A DNA stretch of 34,056 nucleotides from the IMG/VR virus record IMGVR_UViG_3300036859_000326, positions 1-34,056 of that record, one strand, 5' to 3'. The position numbers were made by a program, and so were the translations under genes. Shown here piece after piece: positions 10,201 through 24,803 of the stretch (position 1 is its first letter; each line of letters opens with the position of its first letter). The notes under the pieces were generated by a model. That model had not been told where the DNA came from. It did not search any database and saw only the letters and a program-made list of their open reading frames with translations. This stretch comes from a virus.

Positions 10201-10425
10201 ATGCCTACCTGTGTGGTATCGCTCGAACGCGAGGCGGTTCGCCTGCGCGAAGGTTTCGACGTATGGCGGGCCGATGGCAAACTGATTCTGCGGACGATGA
10301 GTATGCGGCGCGTGCTGGCTCGCCGGGCTTCGTACTTCCGCGTCAACCAGAGCGGCAAGGTGTTCGAGCTGGTGAGCCGGCAAAAGTCGGTTGAGCTGCC
10401 GGCCGGTTCGATTGAATGGCGCTGA
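10201..10425 (+). CDS. Small basic protein, unknown function
   Basis: 74 residues. TAGGAGG lies nine bases before the ATG, inside a GGAGGCCTCC palindrome. The sequence is rich in arginine and beta-prone (CVVSLEREAVRLREGFDV, KVFELVSRQKSVELPAGS). It is divergent from the small-terminase-like gene and precedes the double-HTH gene. A regulatory or nucleic-acid-binding role is possible, but no motif proves it. Confidence 0.6.
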   Translation: MPTCVVSLEREAVRLREGFDVWRADGKLILRTMSMRRVLARRASYFRVNQSGKVFELVSRQKSVELPAGSIEWR

Positions 10426-10473
10426 GGTAGCGGCGGGCTGGCGAAGCTCTCGCGCTTTCGCCGCCCGATCTGT

Positions 10474-10479
10474 TACCCT
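10474..10479 (+). promoter_or_regulatory. -10-like box directly before the double-HTH gene
   Basis: TACCCT, preceded by TGT, ends seven bases before the ATG at 10487. There is no ribosome site in between. It fits the TANNNT boxes seen before other leaderless starts in this genome; the match to TATAAT is weak. Confidence 0.35.
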
Positions 10480-10486
10480 GCCTCTC

Positions 10487-10921
10487 ATGGCGAAGAAACT
10501 GGAGCTGTTGACGAAGGAGATCGCCGCCGAGCGTCTGAACCTCAGTGTTCGCCGCCTGATGGAAATTTCCGCGGAAGGGAAGCTCACGCGTCACCGGGAG
10601 TTTGATCCGAGCACGCGGCGCGAGGCTGTCATGTTCGATGCCGCCGAAGTAGCTGCACTCGTCGAGGAATGGACTCCGAAATCCCTCGTGGTGCGTCCCT
10701 TGGAGCTGCCGCCCGGCAACGGTGAAGCCGAACCCGCGGACCGCGACCAGGGCCGGCTATGGCTAACCATCGCAGAGGCGGCCGACTACACCGGGCTGCC
10801 GGCATCCTTCCTGCACAGACTCGTAGACGAGCGGCGTCTGCCGGCGTTCGATGTCGGCGTACGACCAGGCGGCCGGTTGCGCGTGAAGCGGGCGGATCTG
10901 GAGATGCTCTCGGTCCAGTAA
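10487..10921 (+). CDS. Regulator with two excisionase-type helix-turn-helix domains
   Basis: 144 residues from the ATG at 10487; the frame is open further upstream, but those codons fall in the previous gene and look non-coding. Two related domains are visible. The first (residues 5-60) reads LTKEIAAERLNLSVRRLMEI, then FDPSTRREAVMFDAAEVAAL. The second (residues 88-144) reads LWLTIAEAADYTGLPASFLH, then GRLRVKRADLEML. Both follow the pattern of excisionase/MerR-like winged HTH units (helix pair, short wing, closing helix). It probably binds DNA at repeated sites. It lies directly before the promoter and structured leader of the replication genes, so it is a candidate controller of that region. 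Confidence 0.75.
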   Translation: MAKKLELLTKEIAAERLNLSVRRLMEISAEGKLTRHREFDPSTRREAVMFDAAEVAALVEEWTPKSLVVRPLELPPGNGEAEPADRDQGRLWLTIAEAADYTGLPASFLHRLVDERRLPAFDVGVRPGGRLRVKRADLEMLSVQ

Positions 10922-13327: not shown

Positions 13328-14614
13328 ATGCTGAACCTTCATCGTTTGCCAGAGGGCGTAATCCGGCAGGACATCGAAGCGGCTTCAGCGGCGATGAGCG
13401 ATGCCGAACTTCGCGAGCTGCTGTTCTGCTGGGAGCTATGGAGCCGGCCGGAGCAGGAGTGGCCGGCAGGCGACTGGCGGACCTGGTTAATCATGGCCGG
13501 CCGCGGCTTCGGCAAGACGCGCACGGGCGCCGAGACAGTGCGCCAGGTGGCGATGCGGCGGCCGAATCAGCGCATCGCGCTTATCGGGCCTACGTCGGCA
13601 GATTGCCGTGACGTGATAGTGGAGGGGGAGAGCGGACTGCTGAACGTCTTCCCTCCCGAGCAGAGGCCGATCTATGAACCCAGTAAGCGCCGCGTTACAT
13701 TTGCGAACGGGACGATGGCCATTATGTACTCGGCCGAGGAGCCCGAGCGTTTGCGGGGACCCCAACACGACTTTGCGTACTGCGATGAGATCGCCGTGTA
13801 TCCCAAGCCGGATCTGCTGTGGCAAAACCTCAAGTTCGGCTTGAGGCTCGGGCCGGACCCGCGCATCGTCGCGACGACGACGCCGAAGCCGGTCAAGTTC
13901 CTCAAGAATCTGGTGCAGGACGCGGGCACGCGCGTGACGCGTGGCTCCACGTATGACAACCGCGCGAACCTGCCGGCGACCGTGCTCGCCGACTTCGATC
14001 GCATCTACGGCGGAACGCGTATCGGCCGCCAGGAGCTGGCCGGCGAGCTGCTCGAAGAAGTCGAAGGGGCGCTGTGGCGGCTGAGCGAGATCGACGCCCG
14101 GCGCGTGCGCAAGGCGCCCGAGCTGGTGCGCATCGTGATTCCGATTGATCCTTCGGTGACCAGCGGGCCGGACTCGGATGAGTGCGGCATCGTGCCCGTG
14201 GGGCTCGGCGCGGACGGACACGGCTACGTGCTGGGGGATCACTCCGGGCGCATGCCGGCGGCACAATGGGCGGCGAAAGCGGTTGAGCTACTCGACCTGC
14301 TCGAAGGCGACCGGATCGTGGCCGAGGTAAACAACGGCGGCGACCTGGTAGAGACCACGATTCGTACGGTGCGGGCTAACGTGCCCTACGACAAGGTGCA
14401 CGCCTCTAAGGGCAAGATCCCCCGGGCTGAGCCGGTCGCGGCACTGTATGAGCAGGGCAAGGTGCATCATGTCGGCAGCTTTCCGCAGCTCGAAACGGAG
14501 ATGTGTACGTGGGTGTCGGGGATGCGCTCGCCGAGCCGCATGGATTCTTTGGTGTGGGGTGTGTCGTACCTGATGCTGAAGCCGCGTCGCGAAGGGCGGG
14601 CCTTGTCGATATGA
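13328..14614 (+). CDS. terL: Terminase large subunit (ATPase-nuclease packaging motor)
   Basis: 428 residues, full length. The Walker A motif is AGRGFGKT (residues 57-64; Lys63). Walker B is FAYCDE (Asp153, Glu154). A coupling motif follows (ATTTPKP). The RNase H-like nuclease shows its acidic residues in IDPSV (Asp274), VNNGGD (Asp339) and MDSLVWG (Asp406). It cuts concatemeric DNA and drives it into proheads through the portal. The start has no ribosome site; a -10-like box six bases upstream suggests leaderless translation. The stop overlaps the next gene by ATGA. The portal is 4.4 kb downstream, an unusually long separation filled by small and fibre-like genes. Confidence 0.95.
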   Translation: MLNLHRLPEGVIRQDIEAASAAMSDAELRELLFCWELWSRPEQEWPAGDWRTWLIMAGRGFGKTRTGAETVRQVAMRRPNQRIALIGPTSADCRDVIVEGESGLLNVFPPEQRPIYEPSKRRVTFANGTMAIMYSAEEPERLRGPQHDFAYCDEIAVYPKPDLLWQNLKFGLRLGPDPRIVATTTPKPVKFLKNLVQDAGTRVTRGSTYDNRANLPATVLADFDRIYGGTRIGRQELAGELLEEVEGALWRLSEIDARRVRKAPELVRIVIPIDPSVTSGPDSDECGIVPVGLGADGHGYVLGDHSGRMPAAQWAAKAVELLDLLEGDRIVAEVNNGGDLVETTIRTVRANVPYDKVHASKGKIPRAEPVAALYEQGKVHHVGSFPQLETEMCTWVSGMRSPSRMDSLVWGVSYLMLKPRREGRALSI

Positions 14615-17020: not shown

Positions 17021-17045
17021 TGGTTGACCGTATCGCCGTCAACCA
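17021..17045. repeat. Inverted repeat with GGTTGAC arms
   Basis: TGGTTGAC (17021-17028) and GTCAACCA (17038-17045) form a perfect 8-bp inverted repeat around a 9-base loop. It shares GGTTGAC/GTCAACC with the promoter-operator at 14940. There is no T-run, so a terminator is unlikely; a protein-binding site or RNA hairpin fits better. Confidence 0.5.
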
Positions 17046-17067
17046 TGTCCGGACGCGACTCCGGAGG

Positions 17068-17103
17068 CGCTCTGCTTACGCGGAGTGCGCACGGCAGAGA
17101 TCA
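17068..17103 (-). repeat. Cassette 3' flank, copy 1 (hairpin at the stop codon)
   Basis: These 36 bases are identical to 22143-22179 except that T is replaced by AA in the centre. Both end exactly on the TGA of a leftward gene. CTCTGC (17070-17075) pairs with GCAGAG (17094-17099), with an inner CGC/GCG. There is no T-run on either strand. Matching position at two unrelated genes marks it as a cassette boundary. Confidence 0.8.
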
Positions 17104-17349
17104 GGGAATCTGTAATTTCTCTTTGATGCGGGCGACGTCCAGTGCGTACCCGACTAAAAGCTGTTCGATGTGATCGAGTTTGCTTTCGAGCCGCTCCATG
17201 CGGCGCTCCATGCTATCGAGGCGCTTACTCATGTCGCTGAATCGCTGGTTCATGTCGCCGAAGCGTTGGCTATTGACCAGTAGGGCGACGATGGCGACCA
17301 ATGTGCTGCCGCTGGCACTAATAATTGCGGCTGTAAGGTTGGAATCCAA
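17101..17349 (-). CDS. Cassette protein 1: membrane-anchored coiled coil
   Basis: 82 residues from a TTG start with AGGAG eight bases upstream. One N-terminal membrane span (AAIISASGSTLVAIVALLV) is followed by a heptad-rich coiled coil (MNQRFSDMSKRLDSMERRME, RLESKLDHIEQLLVG). Haemolysin XhlA-type or holin-partner proteins share this span-coil layout in reverse or similar order, but sequence support is absent. The gene sits in a cassette whose 5' hairpin, ribosome site, TTG start and 3' hairpin match those of the gene at 22177. Confidence 0.75.
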   Translation of the reverse strand: MDSNLTAAIISASGSTLVAIVALLVNSQRFGDMNQRFSDMSKRLDSMERRMERLESKLDHIEQLLVGYALDVARIKEKLQIP

Positions 17350-17355
17350 GGTGTT

Positions 17356-17379
17356 TTCTCCTGCCGGATAGCGTCCGGC
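17356..17379 (-). promoter_or_regulatory. Cassette 5' flank, copy 1: hairpin before the ribosome site
   Basis: On the minus strand the mRNA reads GCCGGA-CGCTA-TCCGGC, followed at once by AGGAGAA. The 6-bp stem abuts the ribosome site. The second copy at 22434 reads GCCGGT-CACTA-ACCGGC-AGGAGAA. The last pair of the stem changed from A-T to T-A on both sides, so pairing was kept. Confidence 0.75.
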
Positions 17380-17409
17380 TTAACTCCTTCATTTTACCAC
17401 GCTTATAAG
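17380..17409 (+). promoter_or_regulatory. Candidate promoter for the 17413 gene
   Basis: TTAACT near 17380 and TTATAA (17403-17408) are 17 bases apart. The ATG begins five bases after the -10 and no ribosome site is seen. It fits the near-leaderless pattern noted elsewhere in this genome. Confidence 0.45.
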
Positions 17410-17412
17410 TTT

Positions 17413-18060
17413 ATGCCGGAGAAAAGGCGCTTCACTGAAGTGTTTTCCCGCTTGCGGTTCTGGGAGAGCGAAGGGGAAGCCCTAGCCCCAGAACCCGCTG
17501 AGCAGACCGAGACTGACCCAGAGCGGCTGGCGCGTCTGGAGCAGCGCACCAGAGAGCCGCAACTTCAGGGCCGATCTGATCCGACCATAGAGCGGTTGGT
17601 GCTCACAGTAGAGCAATTGACTCGCGTCGTGGAGCGATTCAGCGGCGAACTGGCGAGCGCCTCGCTCCTTCGCCGCCCGGAGAGTGCCGGGCTGCCGGAG
17701 CTGCCGCCGATGGGTCGCGCCGCGCCGGGTATCGTCATCCCGCGAGCGCAACCGCCCACCGAACCGCGGGCCGTGACCACGGTCACGCTAGCCGAGATGA
17801 ACACGTTGTTCCTCGATGCGAACCAGGTCTACCGCCTGGTCGCGCCCACGTATGGCCGCTACTACTACTGGGTCGCGAATTTCGGGCCGGGCGCTTTGTC
17901 TCTGCGTACCGATGCCGATCCGTTCCCCGGCGATCCGGCATCGGAAACCTTGCCCGCCATGACGGCGGATAACCAGATTCCGGTTTGGCAGGGACTCCGC
18001 GGCCTCGGCGTCGTCACGCAGGCGGCGGGCTGGATCAGCGTCCGCAGGTGGGCTTGGTGA
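17413..18060 (+). CDS. Structural protein with coiled-coil base and beta head domain (putative)
   Basis: 215 residues. Residues 1-90 are charged and helical (FSRLRFWESEGEALAPEPAE, TIERLVLTVEQLTRVVERF). A proline-rich linker (ELPPMGRAAPGIVIPRAQPP) leads to a beta domain of about 95 residues (NQVYRLVAPTYGRYYYWVAN, FGPGALSLRTDADPFPGDP). The beta part resembles the small domains phages use for surface decoration or collar attachment. Its place between terminase and portal, next to a fibre-like gene, suggests a head or collar appendage. No family recognised. Confidence 0.65.
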   Translation: MPEKRRFTEVFSRLRFWESEGEALAPEPAEQTETDPERLARLEQRTREPQLQGRSDPTIERLVLTVEQLTRVVERFSGELASASLLRRPESAGLPELPPMGRAAPGIVIPRAQPPTEPRAVTTVTLAEMNTLFLDANQVYRLVAPTYGRYYYWVANFGPGALSLRTDADPFPGDPASETLPAMTADNQIPVWQGLRGLGVVTQAAGWISVRRWAW

Positions 18061-18073
18061 AAGGGGTGCAGTG

Positions 18074-19033
18074 ATGGGTGGCTTTTCTTCGATCGGCGGC
18101 GCGGTCACTGGCGGTGGCATTCCCGACGCGCCCGACGACGGCCTGCTCTATGGGCGGCGCAATGAAGCTTGGGAGCCAGCACCGGATTACGCCTATGTCG
18201 ACGCCGGCGACGCCAATCTACAGGGACAGATCAACCAGCTCGCGGCAGGCCTGATCTATTGCGGCGCTTATGATGTCGCCAACGATCAGGGGACCTTCAC
18301 TGCGGCGAGCGGCATTCCGAACGGACCATTGCCGCCGGCGAACCAATCGCCGCCGGTGACGCGCGGCGAATATGTGGTCTGCACCAGCGCAGGCATTGGA
18401 CGGGGCAATGCTCCAGCGGTTCCGATTGCAGTCGGCGATCAGTTGATTTCGGGCGGTCCAGGTAGCGGTCCGATCTGGCAGCTCCTGCCGGTCGGCGGCG
18501 CGGCCGCAACCGCCGATGCGGTGGCGTTGAATCCGCCGATTCCGCCCTGGACCAACGTGCAAGAGGCGATTGAGGGACTGAATACCAACACTGGGGGAGC
18601 GCTTCGTGTCGTCGTGGTCAATCCGAATGAAATCACGATCCCCGTGGGCAATCAGCTCCAGACCATTTATGCAGGCAACCCGATCACTATGGGACGCGGC
18701 GGCAATTCCTGGCTGGGGTTCCAGTTCTCCGGCAATTTCTATCAGACTGCTGCGGTCGGCTCGGCCTGGACGGTTAGCTGGCAGATTCAGGGTGGTCCCG
18801 TCACTCCCTACCGATGGATCCTGACCTACCATTACAAGGGAATCGATATCACTCTCGGCACCACCGGCTTCGATCTGAGTTTGATGCTGCCCGTCTCCGG
18901 GTCCAACCCCAGGGTAGAGATTCTGAGTGTGCCCAGGGCCGGGCCGCAAGCGCTGACCTACATTGGCGCGGGCGGGGGCCTGAGCGATGAGTACCGCATG
19001 AAACTGGCCCTGACTGACGCCGGACCGCGGTAG
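18074..19033 (+). CDS. Fibre-like structural protein
   Basis: 319 residues. ATG 18074 has AAGGGG seven bases upstream and is preferred to GTG 18071. The N-terminus is glycine-rich (GGFSSIGGAVTGGGIPDAPD) and contains DDGLLYGRRNEAWEPA, a motif of fibre linkers. The middle reads YVVCTSAGIGRGNAP and ISGGPGSGPIWQLLPVGG, then WTNVQEAIEGLNTN, also fibre-typical. The end is a beta-sandwich (TVSWQIQGGPVTPYRWILTY). It probably forms a head fibre, whisker or second receptor-binding protein. Its place before the portal, away from the tail fibres, is unusual. Confidence 0.7.
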   Translation: MGGFSSIGGAVTGGGIPDAPDDGLLYGRRNEAWEPAPDYAYVDAGDANLQGQINQLAAGLIYCGAYDVANDQGTFTAASGIPNGPLPPANQSPPVTRGEYVVCTSAGIGRGNAPAVPIAVGDQLISGGPGSGPIWQLLPVGGAAATADAVALNPPIPPWTNVQEAIEGLNTNTGGALRVVVVNPNEITIPVGNQLQTIYAGNPITMGRGGNSWLGFQFSGNFYQTAAVGSAWTVSWQIQGGPVTPYRWILTYHYKGIDITLGTTGFDLSLMLPVSGSNPRVEILSVPRAGPQALTYIGAGGGLSDEYRMKLALTDAGPR

Positions 19034-19053
19034 AGAGTGGAAGCGACCAAGAA

Positions 19054-20508
19054 ATGCCTGTTCTCGATCGCGTGCTAAATCGCTTCGGGCTCGCCCGGAT
19101 GAACGGCCACGGCCGCAAGCAGAACGCGCCCATCATCAACGACGAGCGCGGCAACCGGCCGTCCGTGCAGATTATCGGCGGATTCACTGGGACGGGCGGT
19201 AGTTGGGGGACCTGGAACACCTACGATTACGTGCCACAGGTCACCGCGGGTTACATTCGCAATCCCGATGTGTACGCTTGCGTATCGTTGATTGCGAGTG
19301 CGGGCAAGCAGGTCAAATGGTGGGACGGGGCAGGGAACTCGAAAGCACTCACACCGGCTGAGCTGCTGGCGAAAGCCATCGGCCGCGATCCCGACGAGCA
19401 CATGGCACCGAGCGTCCGCGACGACGCCAAACAACGCCGCCACTACCTGAAGGCCGTTCTGAATCCGCTGCCGTCGATTGCGCTGTTGCGGAAGGCGGGC
19501 GGAGCGGCATTCATCGAGTCCTGGTTGAGTTATATTCTGCTCGCCGGCAACGACTATATCGAGATCGAGCGCACCGCTCCGAGTGCGCCGCCGAACTCGA
19601 TCTATCTGTTGCGGCCGGATCGAGTGCAGGCCTGGTTATGGGAGATTCAGCGGCGGGGGATAGAGTCGGTCTTTGCCGTCGAAAATGAGCTGGTCGAGTA
19701 CTGGAAGGTGACGGCCTACGGCCAGGCGCGGACGGTTCCGCCGCGCGACATGGTGCATTCGAAGCTGTTCAATCCGCTGTCTGACATCTACGGCATGCCG
19801 CCCTTGCAGGCCGCGATGCTGCGCGTGCAGACGCTGAACGAAGGCGCCGAGCGCATGAAGCTCATGATGCAGCGCGGCTTTGCGCCAGGCTGGATCGAGG
19901 CGGCCAAGGATTCGATCTGGGACGATGTGCAAATCGCGCAGCTCAAAGAGCGCGTGCGCGCGAGCAAGGGGGCAGGCGAGGAATTGTTCCTCGAAAACGC
20001 CACGTGGCACCAGATGGGTTTTTCGCCAGCGGACAGCGAAGTCAGCAATCAGCAAATTCTCTCCAAGCGCGATATCGCCGCGGTGTTCCATGTGCCGCCC
20101 GAGCTGATCGGCGACACGGCGAGCAAGACCTACAGCAATTTTCAGGAAGCCAGGAGGGCGCTCTACACCGAAGCGGTGATTCCGCTGTTAACGCAGTTCC
20201 GCGACGACTGGAATCAGACCATCGGTAAGGAACTGGGCAGTCCGCTGGACTTCGACAAGGACACGTTCGACGCCATCAGCGCAGCGCGGGCCGAAGCTAC
20301 CGACCGCGTGAACAAGCTGTGGAGCAGCGGCGTGATCACCCACAACGAAGCCAGGGCCGATCTCGAATATGATTCGGTGGAGAAAGCTACGGGCGGCGAT
20401 GGCAACGTGTTCTACGCGCCGGCGAACTTCATGCCGCTGAGCGTGCCGCCTGATGAGGAGGGTAACGATGCTCCTGCAAAGCAACCTGCGAGTGAAGATC
20501 AGCAGTGA
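19054..20508 (+). CDS. Portal protein, HK97 type
   Basis: 484 residues, usual for the family. Diagnostic stretches include NPDVYACVSLIASAG, ESWLSYILLAGNDYIEIER, LLRPDRVQAW, IYGMPPLQAAML and QILSKRDIAAVFHVPPELIG, then TYSNFQEARRALYTEAVIPL. It forms the dodecameric ring at one head vertex through which terminase pumps DNA. The C-terminus is acidic and disordered (PDEEGNDAPAKQPASEDQQ). The gene overlaps the start of the next one by 41 bases. It heads the head-assembly block 19054-24803. Confidence 0.93.
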   Translation: MPVLDRVLNRFGLARMNGHGRKQNAPIINDERGNRPSVQIIGGFTGTGGSWGTWNTYDYVPQVTAGYIRNPDVYACVSLIASAGKQVKWWDGAGNSKALTPAELLAKAIGRDPDEHMAPSVRDDAKQRRHYLKAVLNPLPSIALLRKAGGAAFIESWLSYILLAGNDYIEIERTAPSAPPNSIYLLRPDRVQAWLWEIQRRGIESVFAVENELVEYWKVTAYGQARTVPPRDMVHSKLFNPLSDIYGMPPLQAAMLRVQTLNEGAERMKLMMQRGFAPGWIEAAKDSIWDDVQIAQLKERVRASKGAGEELFLENATWHQMGFSPADSEVSNQQILSKRDIAAVFHVPPELIGDTASKTYSNFQEARRALYTEAVIPLLTQFRDDWNQTIGKELGSPLDFDKDTFDAISAARAEATDRVNKLWSSGVITHNEARADLEYDSVEKATGGDGNVFYAPANFMPLSVPPDEEGNDAPAKQPASEDQQ

Positions 20509-20752
20509 TGGTATAGGCGAAGCCATCGGCCGAATCGAGGACATCCGCCCGCCTGCGGAAATGCCGTACCTTTCAGGCATCGAACATCCGAGGGCCGTGC
20601 TGGAGGAGTGGGGTGTCTCGCGCGTGGCAATGATCAGCTATTACGCCGCGCCGTCCTCACAGTTCGTTTTTATGGCGCTCGAAATCGGCGGCGAATGGTG
20701 GGATCTGAAGCGGCGGAAGCTGTCTTTAGAAGTCGTCGGGCGATTCGATTGA
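20468..20752 (+). CDS. Hypothetical protein overlapping the portal gene
   Basis: 94 residues from ATG 20468, with GAGGAGGG six bases upstream, inside the portal's disordered C-terminus. Sequence: LLQSNLRVKISSDGIGEAIG, then HPRAVLEEWGVSRVAMISYY and FMALEIGGEWWDLKRRKLSL. It looks like a small alpha/beta domain. The stop overlaps the next start (TTGA). No family recognised. Confidence 0.65.
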   Translation: MLLQSNLRVKISSDGIGEAIGRIEDIRPPAEMPYLSGIEHPRAVLEEWGVSRVAMISYYAAPSSQFVFMALEIGGEWWDLKRRKLSLEVVGRFD

Positions 20753-20940
20753 GGAACACTAAGGATCGATTCCGCGAGATCAAGCTGCGTTATGACGACC
20801 GGTGTGTGGACTGCGGGCGCGAAGTCTCGCGCGGCGACTGGGTGGTCTGGGATGAGATCGCCCGCAAGGTCTACTGCGCGAGATGCGGCGAGCACCTGCC
20901 TGTCCAGGGCGAGCTGCTGTTGAAACGAGAGCGCGAATGA
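20749..20940 (+). CDS. Zinc-ribbon small protein between portal and head morphogenesis genes
   Basis: 63 residues from TTG 20749, in a TTGA overlap. The ribbon is clear: CVDCGREVSRGDWVVW, then KVYCARCGEHL. The frame is open further upstream, but those codons are in the previous gene and look non-coding. The pattern (C..CG..I..G......, C..C) is a known small zinc finger type found in phages. The stop overlaps the next start by ATGA, so it is co-translated with the head morphogenesis gene. Confidence 0.65.
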   Translation: MRNTKDRFREIKLRYDDRCVDCGREVSRGDWVVWDEIARKVYCARCGEHLPVQGELLLKRERE

Positions 20941-21707
20941 TGGCGGGCGAGGCAGTCGATTCTAAAGCAACCGATCGCCGCTGGCGGACGTTCGACGTGT
21001 TCCTGGAAAGCGAATCGGCGGCGCAAGCGGGCATGGCGCAAAGGCTGCTGAAAGACGAGGCGCACCGCATCGCCGGCGCCTACGGACGGGCGGGCCGCAA
21101 CACAGCCTTGCAGCAGGTGCGCGAGCTGCCGTGGCACAACTACATTATGCAGCTCTGGAGCACGGCCGTGAAGATCGCAGGCGAGCTGACCGAGGAGGTG
21201 CTGGCGTCTAAGCGTAGCGATATCTTCTATCGCGCAGCGCGGCAGTGGCTCGACCGCAACGGGCGGGCACGTGCGGCGGGACTGGCGCGAACCAGCCGGC
21301 AGAACGCGCTCAAGGCGATCGCCGCTGCTACCGAGGCCAGCGCGAGCCTGGACACCGTTCAGGACGCCGTGCGGCAGGAGCTAGAGAAGATTGCAGTGTG
21401 GCGCTCGGAAACCATCGCCCGGACTGAGGTTCATTCTGCCGCGTACTATGGAGCGTTCATGGCGGCGCTAGCGAGCCACCAGCCACTACACAAAATCTGG
21501 ACGGCGCCGCGGCATCCCACGCGCACGTGCGACCAGCATCTAGAGCTGCACGGCGTGCGTGCCGAGATGCGTCACTACTTCGTCATTGGCGAGGATCGCC
21601 TGATGTACCCCGGCGACACCGAACTAGGGGCGGCGCCCGAGCAGACCATCAATTGCCGCTGTTCGATGGACCTGATCCAGTTGCAGCACGAACAGATCGA
21701 GGTGTGA
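20937..21707 (+). CDS. Head morphogenesis protein (Mu gpF / SPP1 gp7-like)
   Basis: 256 residues from the ATGA-overlap start at 20937. The C-terminal half carries the family hallmarks: ETIARTEVHSAAYYGAFMAA, IWTAPRHPTRTCDQHLELHG and the final NCRCSMDLIQL, with the conserved Cys-Arg-Cys. The N-terminal half is helical. Members act as minor head proteins during prohead assembly and DNA ejection. The position just after the portal agrees with that. Confidence 0.88.
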   Translation: MMAGEAVDSKATDRRWRTFDVFLESESAAQAGMAQRLLKDEAHRIAGAYGRAGRNTALQQVRELPWHNYIMQLWSTAVKIAGELTEEVLASKRSDIFYRAARQWLDRNGRARAAGLARTSRQNALKAIAAATEASASLDTVQDAVRQELEKIAVWRSETIARTEVHSAAYYGAFMAALASHQPLHKIWTAPRHPTRTCDQHLELHGVRAEMRHYFVIGEDRLMYPGDTELGAAPEQTINCRCSMDLIQLQHEQIEV

Positions 21708-21711
21708 GCTT

Positions 21712-22095
21712 ATGGCTAAAAAGGGTGAGGGTAAGCGGGTTACCGAATCGCTCAAGGTTACGCTGACTGCGGCGGAGATCCGGCAGCTCGGGACCGATCT
21801 GGCGGAAGCGGTCCGGCATCAGGTGGAGCTGGAAAACGCCAAGGCAGCGAGCGCGAGCACGTTTGCGGCACAGATCAAGACGAACGCCAACCTGTTGCGG
21901 GATTTGGCCACGCGGTACGCAGACGGATACGAAATCCGCGAGGTCGCGTGCTACGTGCTGTACGCCACGCCGAAAGCCGGCATGAAACGCATTATTCGAT
22001 CGGACACCGACGAGGTAGTGCGCGAGGAGCCGATGACCGCGGACGAACTTCAGACGGCCTTCGGATTTGAAGATCCGGGGCGGAAACCACAATGA
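21712..22095 (+). CDS. Conserved phage protein with coiled-coil core
   Basis: 127 residues. Order: basic start (AKKGEGKRVTESLKVTLTAA), a helix with LGTDLAEAVRHQVELENAKA, and a strand-rich end (YEIREVACYVLYATPKAG) with DTDEVVREEPMTADELQ. I recall proteins with this end (R.DTGEVV..R.M...E.Q) from many phages, usually without known function and often near recombination or replication genes. Here it lies between head genes. GAGGTGTGAGCTT precedes the ATG, giving a modest ribosome site. Confidence 0.7.
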   Translation: MAKKGEGKRVTESLKVTLTAAEIRQLGTDLAEAVRHQVELENAKAASASTFAAQIKTNANLLRDLATRYADGYEIREVACYVLYATPKAGMKRIIRSDTDEVVREEPMTADELQTAFGFEDPGRKPQ

Positions 22096-22103
22096 GGGGG
22101 GTA

Positions 22104-22126
22104 CGGGGATCTTACGTAATCCCCCG
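22104..22126 (+). terminator. Hairpin in the gap before the second cassette
   Basis: GGGGAT (22105-22110) pairs with ATCCCC (22119-22124) around eight bases. No T-run follows, so it is at best a weak terminator for the 21712 gene. The palindrome GGTTACTAACC follows at about 22129-22139. Confidence 0.3.
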
Positions 22127-22142
22127 GAGGTTACTAACCCCA

Positions 22143-22179
22143 CGCTCTGCTTACGCGGAGAAGCGCACGGCAGAGATCA
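22143..22179 (-). repeat. Cassette 3' flank, copy 2 (hairpin at the stop codon)
   Basis: This is the second copy of the element at 17068-17103; it differs only by AA for T in the centre. CTCTGC and GCAGAG again pair, and the element again ends on the TGA of a leftward gene (22177-22179). The bases left of it are unrelated to copy 1 apart from a nearby CCGGAGG. Confidence 0.8.
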
Positions 22180-22428
22180 ATTCTGCGGCAGACGATTCAG
22201 GTATGCCTGCCATTGTTTTTCGAGATTGGTGATGGCTTCGTCGCGCCTTTTACCGCTTTCGATCAGTTCGTCAATCTGGGCATCATGTGCCAGAGCGGTA
22301 TTTTCGAGGGCTTTGATTGACTCATGCAGGATCAGGCTATTTTGCACAAGCTGTGCGATGGATCTGGTGTTTTCCGCAATCGCCAAGCTGTTTTGCGCAA
22401 CGATGTCATTCAGTTCTTTGGTGGTCAA
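22177..22428 (-). CDS. Cassette protein 2: soluble coiled coil
   Basis: 83 residues from a TTG start with AGGAG seven bases upstream. Nearly all helix with heptads: LNDIVAQNSLAIAENTRSIA, ESIKALENTALAHDAQIDEL, AITNLEKQWQAYLNRL. There is no membrane span, unlike cassette protein 1. Length and helical character are similar, but no residue-level homology is evident. The gene interrupts the rightward head block between 21712 and the prohead protease, which suggests insertion as a unit with its own expression signals. Confidence 0.75.
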   Translation of the reverse strand: MTTKELNDIVAQNSLAIAENTRSIAQLVQNSLILHESIKALENTALAHDAQIDELIESGKRRDEAITNLEKQWQAYLNRLPQN

Positions 22429-22433
22429 AGGAA

Positions 22434-22457
22434 TTCTCCTGCCGGTTAGTGACCGGC
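22434..22457 (-). promoter_or_regulatory. Cassette 5' flank, copy 2: hairpin before the ribosome site
   Basis: On the minus strand GCCGGT-CACTA-ACCGGC is followed directly by AGGAGAA. Over 24 bases it differs from copy 1 at three positions; two of these are the two halves of one base pair and one is in the loop. That is the pattern expected of a selected RNA (or DNA) hairpin. Confidence 0.75.
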
Positions 22458-22488
22458 GTATCTATATGATAGCACGGAGGTAACTGTT

Positions 22489-23607
22489 ATGCCAGCAATC
22501 GGATCGCATTCGACAGGGACCACTGACGCAGCATGGGACGGTCCGGCGAACGTGGCCAGGCTCAGAAATGACGGTAGCCGGAGCTACTACCGCTCCATGT
22601 TCGCCTGGGTTGATCCGGACGGCGATCAGGAAACCAAGAGCGCCTATAAGTTTCCCCATCACATGGTCAGCGGGGATGGCAAAGTAGGGGCGGCCAATAC
22701 TCGCGCGGCCAGCGCGGGGATCGCCGTGCTGAATGGCGGTCGGGGCGGCGCGAACATTCCCGACAGCGATCGCAAGGGCATCTATGCGCATCTGGCGAAG
22801 CACATCCGGGATGCCGGCAAAGAGCCATCCGAGCTGAAGGATTGGGAGTACGATGCTTCGACCGATGGGCCGCTGTTCGATCGACTTCAAGCGGACGTCG
22901 GCGAGCAAAAGAGTGAGGTCAAGTATGTCCCGTTGTTCGATCTCAAAGAGATCGACTCTGACGACGGATCATTTAGCGGACATGCCGCCGTCTTCGGCAA
23001 CGTCGATTTGCAGGGCGACCGCATCCGCCGCGGCGCGTTCGCTGACTCGATCGCCGAGAGCAGCGGACGGTGGCCGATCCTGATGGGGCATATCACGTCG
23101 CGGATTGTGGGATTCTCCACTGGCGCTACCGAAGATGCGCACGGGCTGTTTGTCACCGGGGAGTTCACGCCGGATTCTGACGAGGGGCGCAACGCGTACG
23201 CGATCGCGCGGCACGCCGCCAGGCTGAAGCAGCCGCTGGGCCTCTCGATCGGGTACAGCATTCGCGAGGGCGGGGCTGATCTCAACAGCGAAACCGGCGT
23301 GCGCAACCTGACGGCGCTTACTGTCCACGAGTTTTCTGTAGCCGCGGTTCCTGCTAATCCGCGGGCGCGGATCGCCCGCGTGAAGGGCCTGGAGAGCGTG
23401 CGCCAGGTCGAGGGCCTGTTGCGCGAGGCCGGCTTTACCGGCGACGAAGCGCGGCTGATGATCTCTGTTTGTAAAGGGGAGCGGGACGCGAACCTTTCCA
23501 CCCTGGAGCGGGAGGCGAAGGGGCTCACACTCCGCGCAATCACCGAAGATTTGCGCATGTTCAAAACTGTTCGTGATTTAGAAGGAATCATATGCCGACA
23601 CTCTTAG
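22489..23607 (+). CDS. Prohead protease, HK97 (S78) type, with an extra N-terminal domain
   Basis: 372 residues; GGAGG lies eight bases before the ATG. Residues about 145-300 are the protease: DDGSFSGHAAVFGNVDLQGD, then LMGHITSRIVGF (His201), GLSIGYS (Ser253) and HEFSVAAVPANPRARI (His280). Residues 1-130 are an added domain (WDGPANVARLRNDGSRSYYR, YKFPHHMVSG, ANTRAASAGIAVLNGGRGGA, then GIYAHLAKHIRDAGKEPSEL). I recall this domain from other phage and metagenomic prohead proteases; its role is unknown. The protease trims capsid protein during maturation. The gene overlaps the capsid gene by 16 bases. Confidence 0.92.
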   Translation: MPAIGSHSTGTTDAAWDGPANVARLRNDGSRSYYRSMFAWVDPDGDQETKSAYKFPHHMVSGDGKVGAANTRAASAGIAVLNGGRGGANIPDSDRKGIYAHLAKHIRDAGKEPSELKDWEYDASTDGPLFDRLQADVGEQKSEVKYVPLFDLKEIDSDDGSFSGHAAVFGNVDLQGDRIRRGAFADSIAESSGRWPILMGHITSRIVGFSTGATEDAHGLFVTGEFTPDSDEGRNAYAIARHAARLKQPLGLSIGYSIREGGADLNSETGVRNLTALTVHEFSVAAVPANPRARIARVKGLESVRQVEGLLREAGFTGDEARLMISVCKGERDANLSTLEREAKGLTLRAITEDLRMFKTVRDLEGIICRHS

Positions 23608-24803
23608 AAACCGACGACATGCAGAAATTGCAGGGTCTGCTCGGTGAATTTAAAACCACCTACACGAAGCTCGAAGTCGAATACCAGAAGCTCGGCCAGG
23701 GGCAAAGCGAAACCTTTACCAAACTGCAAAAGCTCACTGATGACTATGCAGAGCTGCATACGCAAGTGCAGGAAAAGGCCGTCAAGCGCATTGATGATCT
23801 GGAAGCCAAGCTCAACCGCCGCCAGGCTGAGATGGAACCGCCGAAGTCCATCGGTCAACAGGTGGTCGATGATCCGGGATTTCAGACGGCCATCAAGCAG
23901 CGTGGTGGACGCCTCAATGTAACCGTGTCCGTGAAGGGGCCGCTGTGGCTTGCCAGGCTGGGGATCAAACAAACGGCGATTAGCCTCAGCGAGCAATGGC
24001 CACAGCGCTTATCCGAAATGGGTTTGTTGCCGCGGCCGCCGATCGGTGTTCGCACTCTGATTCCGCCCGGCCGTACGAGCGCGGGCTCGGTCGAGTACGT
24101 CGAAGAAACGTCCTGGACCAATGCCGCGGCGCCCGTGGCGCCCGGCGCGGCGAAGCCGGAATCGCAGAAAGTCTTCACCATTAAGACGGGCGTGGTGCGC
24201 ACGCTTGCGACGTGGTTCAAGACAAGCTGGCAGACTTTAGACGACATGCCGTTTCTCGTCTCGCAAATCGAGAACAACGGCGTATGGGGTGTGCAGGTGG
24301 TCGAAGACAGCCAGTTGCTCAACGGCAACGGCACAGCGCCGAATCTTCAGGGCATGATGCCGGTTGCAGCCGCGGCGCCGGCGCCTCCGGCCGGCAGTAA
24401 TCTGGTGGACGCGATCGGTAAGGCGGTGTTCGATCTGGCGGCGAAAGGCTACATGCCCGATGGCACGGTAGTGAATCCGAGCGACTGGGGAAATGTCGCC
24501 ATGCTCAAAAACTCGCAGGGCAATTACTTGTTTGCCAACCCGATGGACTACCAGCCGAATCCACGGGTATGGGGCACGCGCGTCGTCCAGACCGCGAATA
24601 TGGCGGCCAGCAATTTCCTGGTCGGCGCCTTTCAAGGCAACACGCAATTGCTCGATCGCGAGGACGTGCATGTGCAGCTCGCCACCCAAAACGAGGACGA
24701 TTTCATTAAGAATTTGATCACGATCCTGATCGAGGAGCGTGTGGTGCTGGTACTCTATCAGCCGGGCGCCCTAGAAAAGGGCGTAGTTCCGGCAGCGCCG
24801 TAG
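23592..24803 (+). CDS. Major capsid protein, HK97 fold, with N-terminal scaffolding (delta) domain
   Basis: 403 residues. Residues 1-90 are coiled coil (LGEFKTTYTKLEVEYQKLGQ, VKRIDDLEAKLNRRQAEME), the usual delta domain removed by the protease. The body has VRTLIPPGRTSAGSVEYVEE, AKPESQKVFTIKTGVVRTLA, DSQLLNGNGTAPNLQGMM and MVGAF-type FLVGAFQGNTQLLDREDVHV. These follow the HK97 major capsid pattern of N-arm, P-domain and A-domain. AAGGA precedes the ATG within the end of the protease gene. Confidence 0.93.
   Translation: MPTLLETDDMQKLQGLLGEFKTTYTKLEVEYQKLGQGQSETFTKLQKLTDDYAELHTQVQEKAVKRIDDLEAKLNRRQAEMEPPKSIGQQVVDDPGFQTAIKQRGGRLNVTVSVKGPLWLARLGIKQTAISLSEQWPQRLSEMGLLPRPPIGVRTLIPPGRTSAGSVEYVEETSWTNAAAPVAPGAAKPESQKVFTIKTGVVRTLATWFKTSWQTLDDMPFLVSQIENNGVWGVQVVEDSQLLNGNGTAPNLQGMMPVAAAAPAPPAGSNLVDAIGKAVFDLAAKGYMPDGTVVNPSDWGNVAMLKNSQGNYLFANPMDYQPNPRVWGTRVVQTANMAASNFLVGAFQGNTQLLDREDVHVQLATQNEDDFIKNLITILIEERVVLVLYQPGALEKGVVPAAP

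Follow-up and report, generated by a model that had tools for sequence, protein, structure and literature searches.

The window, a stretch of 34,056 bases comprising the whole of virus record IMGVR_UViG_3300036859_000326, belongs to a tailed phage and encodes a terminase (13328-14614), a portal protein (19054-20508), a head morphogenesis protein (20883-21707), a protease (22489-23607), and a major head protein (23592-24803), together with connector and tail genes. An excisionase-like protein at 10391-10921 suggests a temperate phage. The span 17356-22457, to which the original prediction had assigned a pair of hairpins, resolved into two separate minus-strand cassettes, a (~17022-17396) and b (22105-22471), and all cassette features below are on that strand. 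Each cassette holds one small TTG-started open reading frame (ORF), termed cargo here: ORF a (17101-17349, 82 amino acids) has a hydrophobic N terminus and a coiled coil, with relatives in L182, L109, and L060b, and ORF b (22177-22428, 83 amino acids) is a coiled coil. The two ORFs are unrelated by BLASTP, yet the sequences flanking them resemble each other both upstream and downstream.

Upstream of each ORF is a 5′ hairpin, at 17363-17379 in cassette a (GCCGG-ACGCTAT-CCGGC) and at 22441-22457 in cassette b (GCCGG-TCACTAA-CCGGC), with the Shine-Dalgarno (SD) sequence AGGAG directly 3′ of it (17358-17362 and 22436-22440), then 7 to 8 nt, and then the TTG start. Hairpins before both ribosome sites had been predicted and were confirmed (17379-17363, GCCGGA CGCTA TCCGGC; 22457-22441, GCCGGT CACTA ACCGGC), and AGGAG abuts both stems, as claimed. 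The pattern GCCGGW-N3..12-WCCGGC occurred exactly twice in the window, against a mean of 0.27 in shuffled sequence (two were reached in 3 of 100 shuffles). A −10-like TAAAAT (17391-17396) precedes the hairpin in cassette a and TATCAT (22466-22471) that in cassette b; in most copies of the cassette the best −10 ends approximately 7 nt upstream of the hairpin, so transcription should begin at the hairpin.

The stronger signal was a paired domain of approximately 75 nt located 3′ of the ORF stop codon, absent from the original prediction and made up of three hairpins (A, B, and C) plus a pseudoknot. Hairpin A comprises outer and inner stems capped by a loop of UCUCC or near it; the loop of hairpin B is 6 to 8 nt long; and the loop of hairpin C is of the type UACGNAAG or GGCGNUACG. 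In cassette a, hairpin A (17070-17099; outer stem CTCTGC/GCAGAG, inner stem GCGC/GCGT, apical loop ACTCC, the proposed partner of the SD) is joined by the linker CGCC (17066-17069) to hairpin B (17048-17065; TCCGGA-GTCGCG-TCCGGA), whose loop pairs with the 5′ hairpin loop, and the linker pairs with GGCG (17037-17034) in the loop of hairpin C (17022-17044; GGTTGAC-GGCGATACG-GTCAACC). Cassette b has the same order: hairpin A (22145-22175; CTCTGC/GCAGAG, GCGC/GCGT, loop TTCTCC), the linker CGT (22142-22144) pairing with ACG of loop C, hairpin B (22127-22141; GGGG-TTAGTAA-CCTC), whose TTAGT is the partner of ACTAA in the 5′ loop, and hairpin C (22105-22124; GGGGAT-TACGTAAG-ATCCCC). The pseudoknot, formed by the A-B linker and the start of loop C, occurred among the copies as CGU/ACG, CCU/AGG, CGCC/GGCG, and CGCA/UGCG; it was first shown by RNAalifold on a structurally poor MAFFT alignment and then counted. 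In the copies read, no T run follows hairpin C. Rfam 15 gave no match at gathering score for the window and eight loci, a sensitive search of the cassette region only a chance snoR35 match, and seven further loci only subthreshold matches. Hairpins A, B, and C with the pseudoknot were also seen downstream of an ordinary sense phage gene at L246 ~13018 (record G433, also L242 453); a matching 5′ hairpin loop was not seen at this L242/G433 element.

The comparison covered 26 distinct copies from phage contigs: the 24 of alignment A6, L241, and the second L173 copy. Scanning viral contigs with a hairpin pattern returned many chance matches and approximately 10 true relatives, and a hairpin-blind search with one cargo family returned 23 loci, most with the same leader and 3′ region. 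Further copies came from two narrower scans, R1 (a covariance model applied to entire viral records), a phage protease search, a 3′-only pattern, and a descriptor of B, the pseudoknot, and C; 16 of the 24 aligned copies were also recovered by hairpin-blind searches. R1 matched 31 of the 36 viral records tested, 5 of them twice, and those matches with E values of at least 0.3 that were inspected were false. A divergent member may lie at L051 2094 (record G301), which fits the cassette model loosely: its ORF is of another kind and starts with ATG, and R1 does not score its 3′ domain. Cargo homologues L141, L143, and L144, and L147/L148 from metagenome-assembled genomes of Bryobacteraceae and Acidobacteriaceae, occurred in other contexts without the cassette leader and 3′ region, and this shared scaffold (the chassis) was likewise absent beside cargo homologues in Acidobacteriota, which from the distribution of these homologues is probably the host phylum. 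No R1 match was obtained in 297 Acidobacteriota genomes in a search of low sensitivity (only 16 candidates scored per genome), and the exact hairpin pattern had none in 396; neither search was sensitive enough to establish chromosomal absence. A near-exact copy of the 3′ A hairpin sought in other viruses was not found, and DNA similarity to isolated phages was limited to chance 22-nt matches in mycobacteriophages, with no protein match there.

Further copies were inspected for 5′ stems broken without compensation, and the five outer pairs held in 119 of 120 cells (24 copies), with both-sided changes in four of the five and compensated variants such as GTCGG/CCGAC and GCTGG/CCAGC. Some copies had been found by patterns that require the stem, so the fair test lies in those reachable only without it (L128, L129, L131, L139, L142, L226, and the second copy of G312); these keep the stem by compensation or wobble, except for one C-A in L139. 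The innermost pair, from which covariation had originally been read, does change genuinely from A-T to T-A between the two cassettes, but it is the weakest part of the stem, kept in 18 of 24 copies and failing in 6, and was rejected as sole evidence. The alignments were arranged manually around the structure, so their pairing counts, which are also not tree aware, run high; 96.8% of cells were paired in A5 (73.2% shuffled; 108 cells changed on both sides) and 94.3% of 1003 cells in A6 (24 copies; 76.5% shuffled), where both-sided changes fell in 32 of 45 pairs (173 cells) and sliding the partners by 1 to 3 columns left 37 to 42% paired. Thermodynamic folding of single whole cassettes does not recover the fold unaided: alternative pairings were often favored, and the helix of B reached a mean probability of 0.13 and that of the 5′ hairpin 0.39. 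The local helices contained 46 G-U and 4 A-C cells, a ratio that the opposite strand would reverse; the folding molecule is therefore the RNA of the cassette strand. Together with the covariation in more copies and the position at the ribosome site, this asymmetry supports the original suggestion of a selected RNA structure that may control initiation.

The 5′ loop and the B loop were paired in 84.7% of cells with 36 double changes, and co-changing pairs included GCUAA/UUAGC, GCUUA/UAAGC, ACGAA/UUCGU, AUCA/UGAU, and ACCA/UGGU; the L182 pair UGGCUUA/UAAGCAA compensates relative to L129, and the L001-type kissing helix has one mismatch. In permutation tests independent of the alignment, the mean Watson-Crick run was 4.62 with a copy's own partner and 2.80 when permuted (0 of 20,000 permutations), and P was 0.00002 with one copy per loop class. 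A longer duplex joining the 5′ hairpin to B was rejected: the local stems are kept in 99% of cells and cross-pairing of the arms in 70%, so the contact is loop to loop. Covariation thus establishes, at the level of sequence, the local helices, the pseudoknot, and the pairing of the 5′ loop with loop B. The A loop (UCUCC) is in turn complementary to the SD over 4 to 6 bp in 25 of 26 copies (3 bp in L226). Both partners have changed in the second L173 copy (SD AGGAAA, A loop UUUCCU, 6 bp), and in L128 they have shifted to GAGAGAA/UUCUCU. Permutation gave P values of 0.0024 (Watson-Crick run) and 0.0011 (duplex energy), and of 0.17 counting G-U; because the SD and the A loop are nearly invariant, this covariation comes from few copies. 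Masking of the SD by loop A is likely. The two contacts are nested, which is consistent with one docking event, and pairing between loop C and the start codon gave no signal. The hairpin originally predicted is half of a larger, previously undescribed 5′-3′ structure, in which the ends of the mRNA appear to clasp each other.

Within this chassis, the cargo varies. The cargo ORFs form eight BLASTP groups of coiled-coil proteins, and function searches gave only weak coiled-coil matches; one hydrophobic segment was seen by eye in the MTD, MDS, and L226 groups and was not evident in L002, L093, L152, L157, L158, and L164. Chassis identity did not correlate with cargo similarity (rho, −0.02): unrelated ORFs occur in L073 and L152, whose chassis is 93% shared, and the cassette at L205 10781-11402 (L182) encloses two ORFs in succession. 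Start codons in the 26 copies were TTG (23), GTG (2), and CTG (1), with ATG in none. In the phages checked, the cassette is antisense to its neighbors, often approximately ten bases from the next stop codon. In L225, a close relative with 82% identical DNA, the genes at the position of cassette b are separated by nothing but a ribosome site, and L226 and L164 have cassettes there with two further ORFs. The cassette thus shares with morons an apparent promoter of its own (the −10 boxes) and presence or absence at one site between phage genes. Near-identical CGGAGGTTACT (22125-22135) and CGGAGGTAACT (22475-22485) flank the ends of cassette b; the right-hand copy is the protease ribosome site, and the pair may be an insertion trace or chance.

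We lean toward a closed-loop mRNA: by docking on the leader of its own message, the 3′ domain would limit translation. Each cassette would be an independent transcription unit, antisense between phage structural genes, with an mRNA predicted to run from the 5′ hairpin through the SD and a small TTG-started ORF to the pseudoknotted 3′ domain. This domain would dock on the leader in cis by two adjacent loop contacts, covering the SD once the transcript is complete, so that translation would stay low or be confined to nascent transcripts. A 5′ hairpin and a 3′ knot would shield the message, and the chassis would be reusable, with phages swapping coiled-coil cargo genes within it. Both the docking and the direction of its effect on translation are inferred.

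The same loop could instead promote expression, its ends shielded from nucleases and kept together for ribosome reinitiation, as in a plant-virus 3′ cap-independent translation element. The covariation data fit this equally, as do the hairpin at the 5′ end of the transcript, the compact knot at its 3′ end, the retention of a strong AGGAG, and contact by kissing, where an extended duplex would bury the leader; we nevertheless judge it unlikely, since the A loop mimics the anti-SD and would compete with the ribosome, and the near-cognate starts suggest low output rather than high. It is more doubtful still that the RNA itself is the product and the ORF a tolerated passenger, whether the RNA acts in trans through a free anti-SD loop on other messages or self-assembles through kissing between molecules, as packaging RNAs or ornate RNAs do. 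A chassis conserved while its cargo changes or doubles would suit such an RNA, and the loop complementarity could be intermolecular, but an ORF with SD and start is found in 26 of 26 copies, the anti-SD loop tracks its own SD, and two copies with different loop pairs can occur in one record. The original prediction had also raised a binding site for a phage or host protein, which as the primary role is disfavored. A lone protein-bound hairpin beside the ribosome site, comparable to the MS2 operator or to the start-associated sequences of mycobacteriophages, would explain a stem adjoining AGGAG, and unrelated phages do have comparable repeated leaders of hairpin and SD (PMC3203893); a protein site, such as a translational operator of the coat-protein type, is expected to fix its loop, however, and here the loop letters vary with loop B (GCUA, ACUA, AUCA, ACCA, ACGA, and others) while complementarity to the distant 3′ loop is kept, which makes this reading very improbable. 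Hardly credible is the remaining suggestion, DNA hairpins as single-strand-recognized ends of a mobile cassette (in the style of IS200/IS605 or integron attC, the inverted similarity of the 5′ hairpin and B marking the element's ends): presence or absence at one site (which does support mobility of the whole cassette as a moron), the inverted repeat 22129-22139/22444-22454, and cargo exchange fit it, but the wobble pairs fall on one strand (46:4), the pseudoknot and the SD-directed loop have no role in DNA, B lies approximately 25 nt inside the 3′ end, and the cassette encodes only its small ORF or ORFs and no recombinase of the IS200/IS605 or integron kind.

Bacterial messages are usually regarded as linear and translated during synthesis, and structured 3′ untranslated regions (3′UTRs) are rare. 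The paper on the L17 downstream element and other bacterial 3′UTR motifs terms such structure highly unusual in bacteria (PMC2864571); the cassettes resemble these motifs in having structured RNA in the 3′UTR and differ in matching no Rfam model. That a 3′UTR can mask the SD has experimental precedent in icaR of Staphylococcus aureus, in which UCCCCUG in the 3′UTR pairs with the message's own SD and blocks it, lowering translation and exposing an RNase III site (PMC3868564). The cassettes share with icaR an anti-SD motif in their own 3′UTR (UCUCC) and a 5′-3′ contact over the ORF; unlike icaR, a single gene with a motif-SD contact, they are phage units with interchangeable ORFs, a conserved three-hairpin pseudoknotted domain, and an additional contact by kissing. 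In the hok and aapA type I toxin mRNAs, long-distance pairing renders the full-length mRNA inert (PMC6733600). The likeness lies in a small ORF, a distal anti-SD masking the SD in the full-length RNA (predicted in the cassettes), and folding in cis; the cassettes differ in a cargo that is mostly a soluble or one-helix coiled coil and in a 3′ domain that is a pseudoknot with a kissing loop. In plant-virus 3′ cap-independent translation elements, a structured 3′ domain kisses a 5′ hairpin loop and a second loop targets the initiation machinery. The cassettes are like these elements in anatomy, but belong to another domain of life, so that relatedness in sequence is not expected, and have a loop that mimics the anti-SD instead of complementing rRNA. 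The SAS/ESAS of cluster K mycobacteriophages are a fixed 13-bp sequence at translation starts, for which a 3′ partner domain is not described (PMC3203893); they too are a phage-specific repeated signal at translation starts, whereas the cassette hairpin varies in sequence and has a 3′ partner domain. In unrelated phages, L116 (1051, 1512, 2348, and 2683), L112 (1789 and 2088), L063, L105, and L119, a repeated leader, CCACGGCCC-GCCGGAGCCYATCCGGC-AGGAGGAC, stands before several ATG-started genes; its loop is nearly fixed, a 3′ domain was not seen, and it resembles start-associated sequences.

We tentatively suggest, at somewhat short of even odds, that the cassettes represent a class of phage RNA not known before. 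Its chassis would be transferable, with the 5′ hairpin and the pseudoknotted 3′ domain recognizing each other through two loop-loop contacts whatever ORF lies between them; the result would be a circularized, self-gated messenger, which phages of Acidobacteriota may use as their standard unit for expressing accessory genes that can be exchanged. The many natural variants of the 5′-3′ clasp, with their predicted compensatory partners, would make cis control by mRNA ends testable by loop swaps. They also point to a cassette logic among phage genes, with a conserved RNA scaffold and a variable protein, and the cassette may be a compact part for gated expression.
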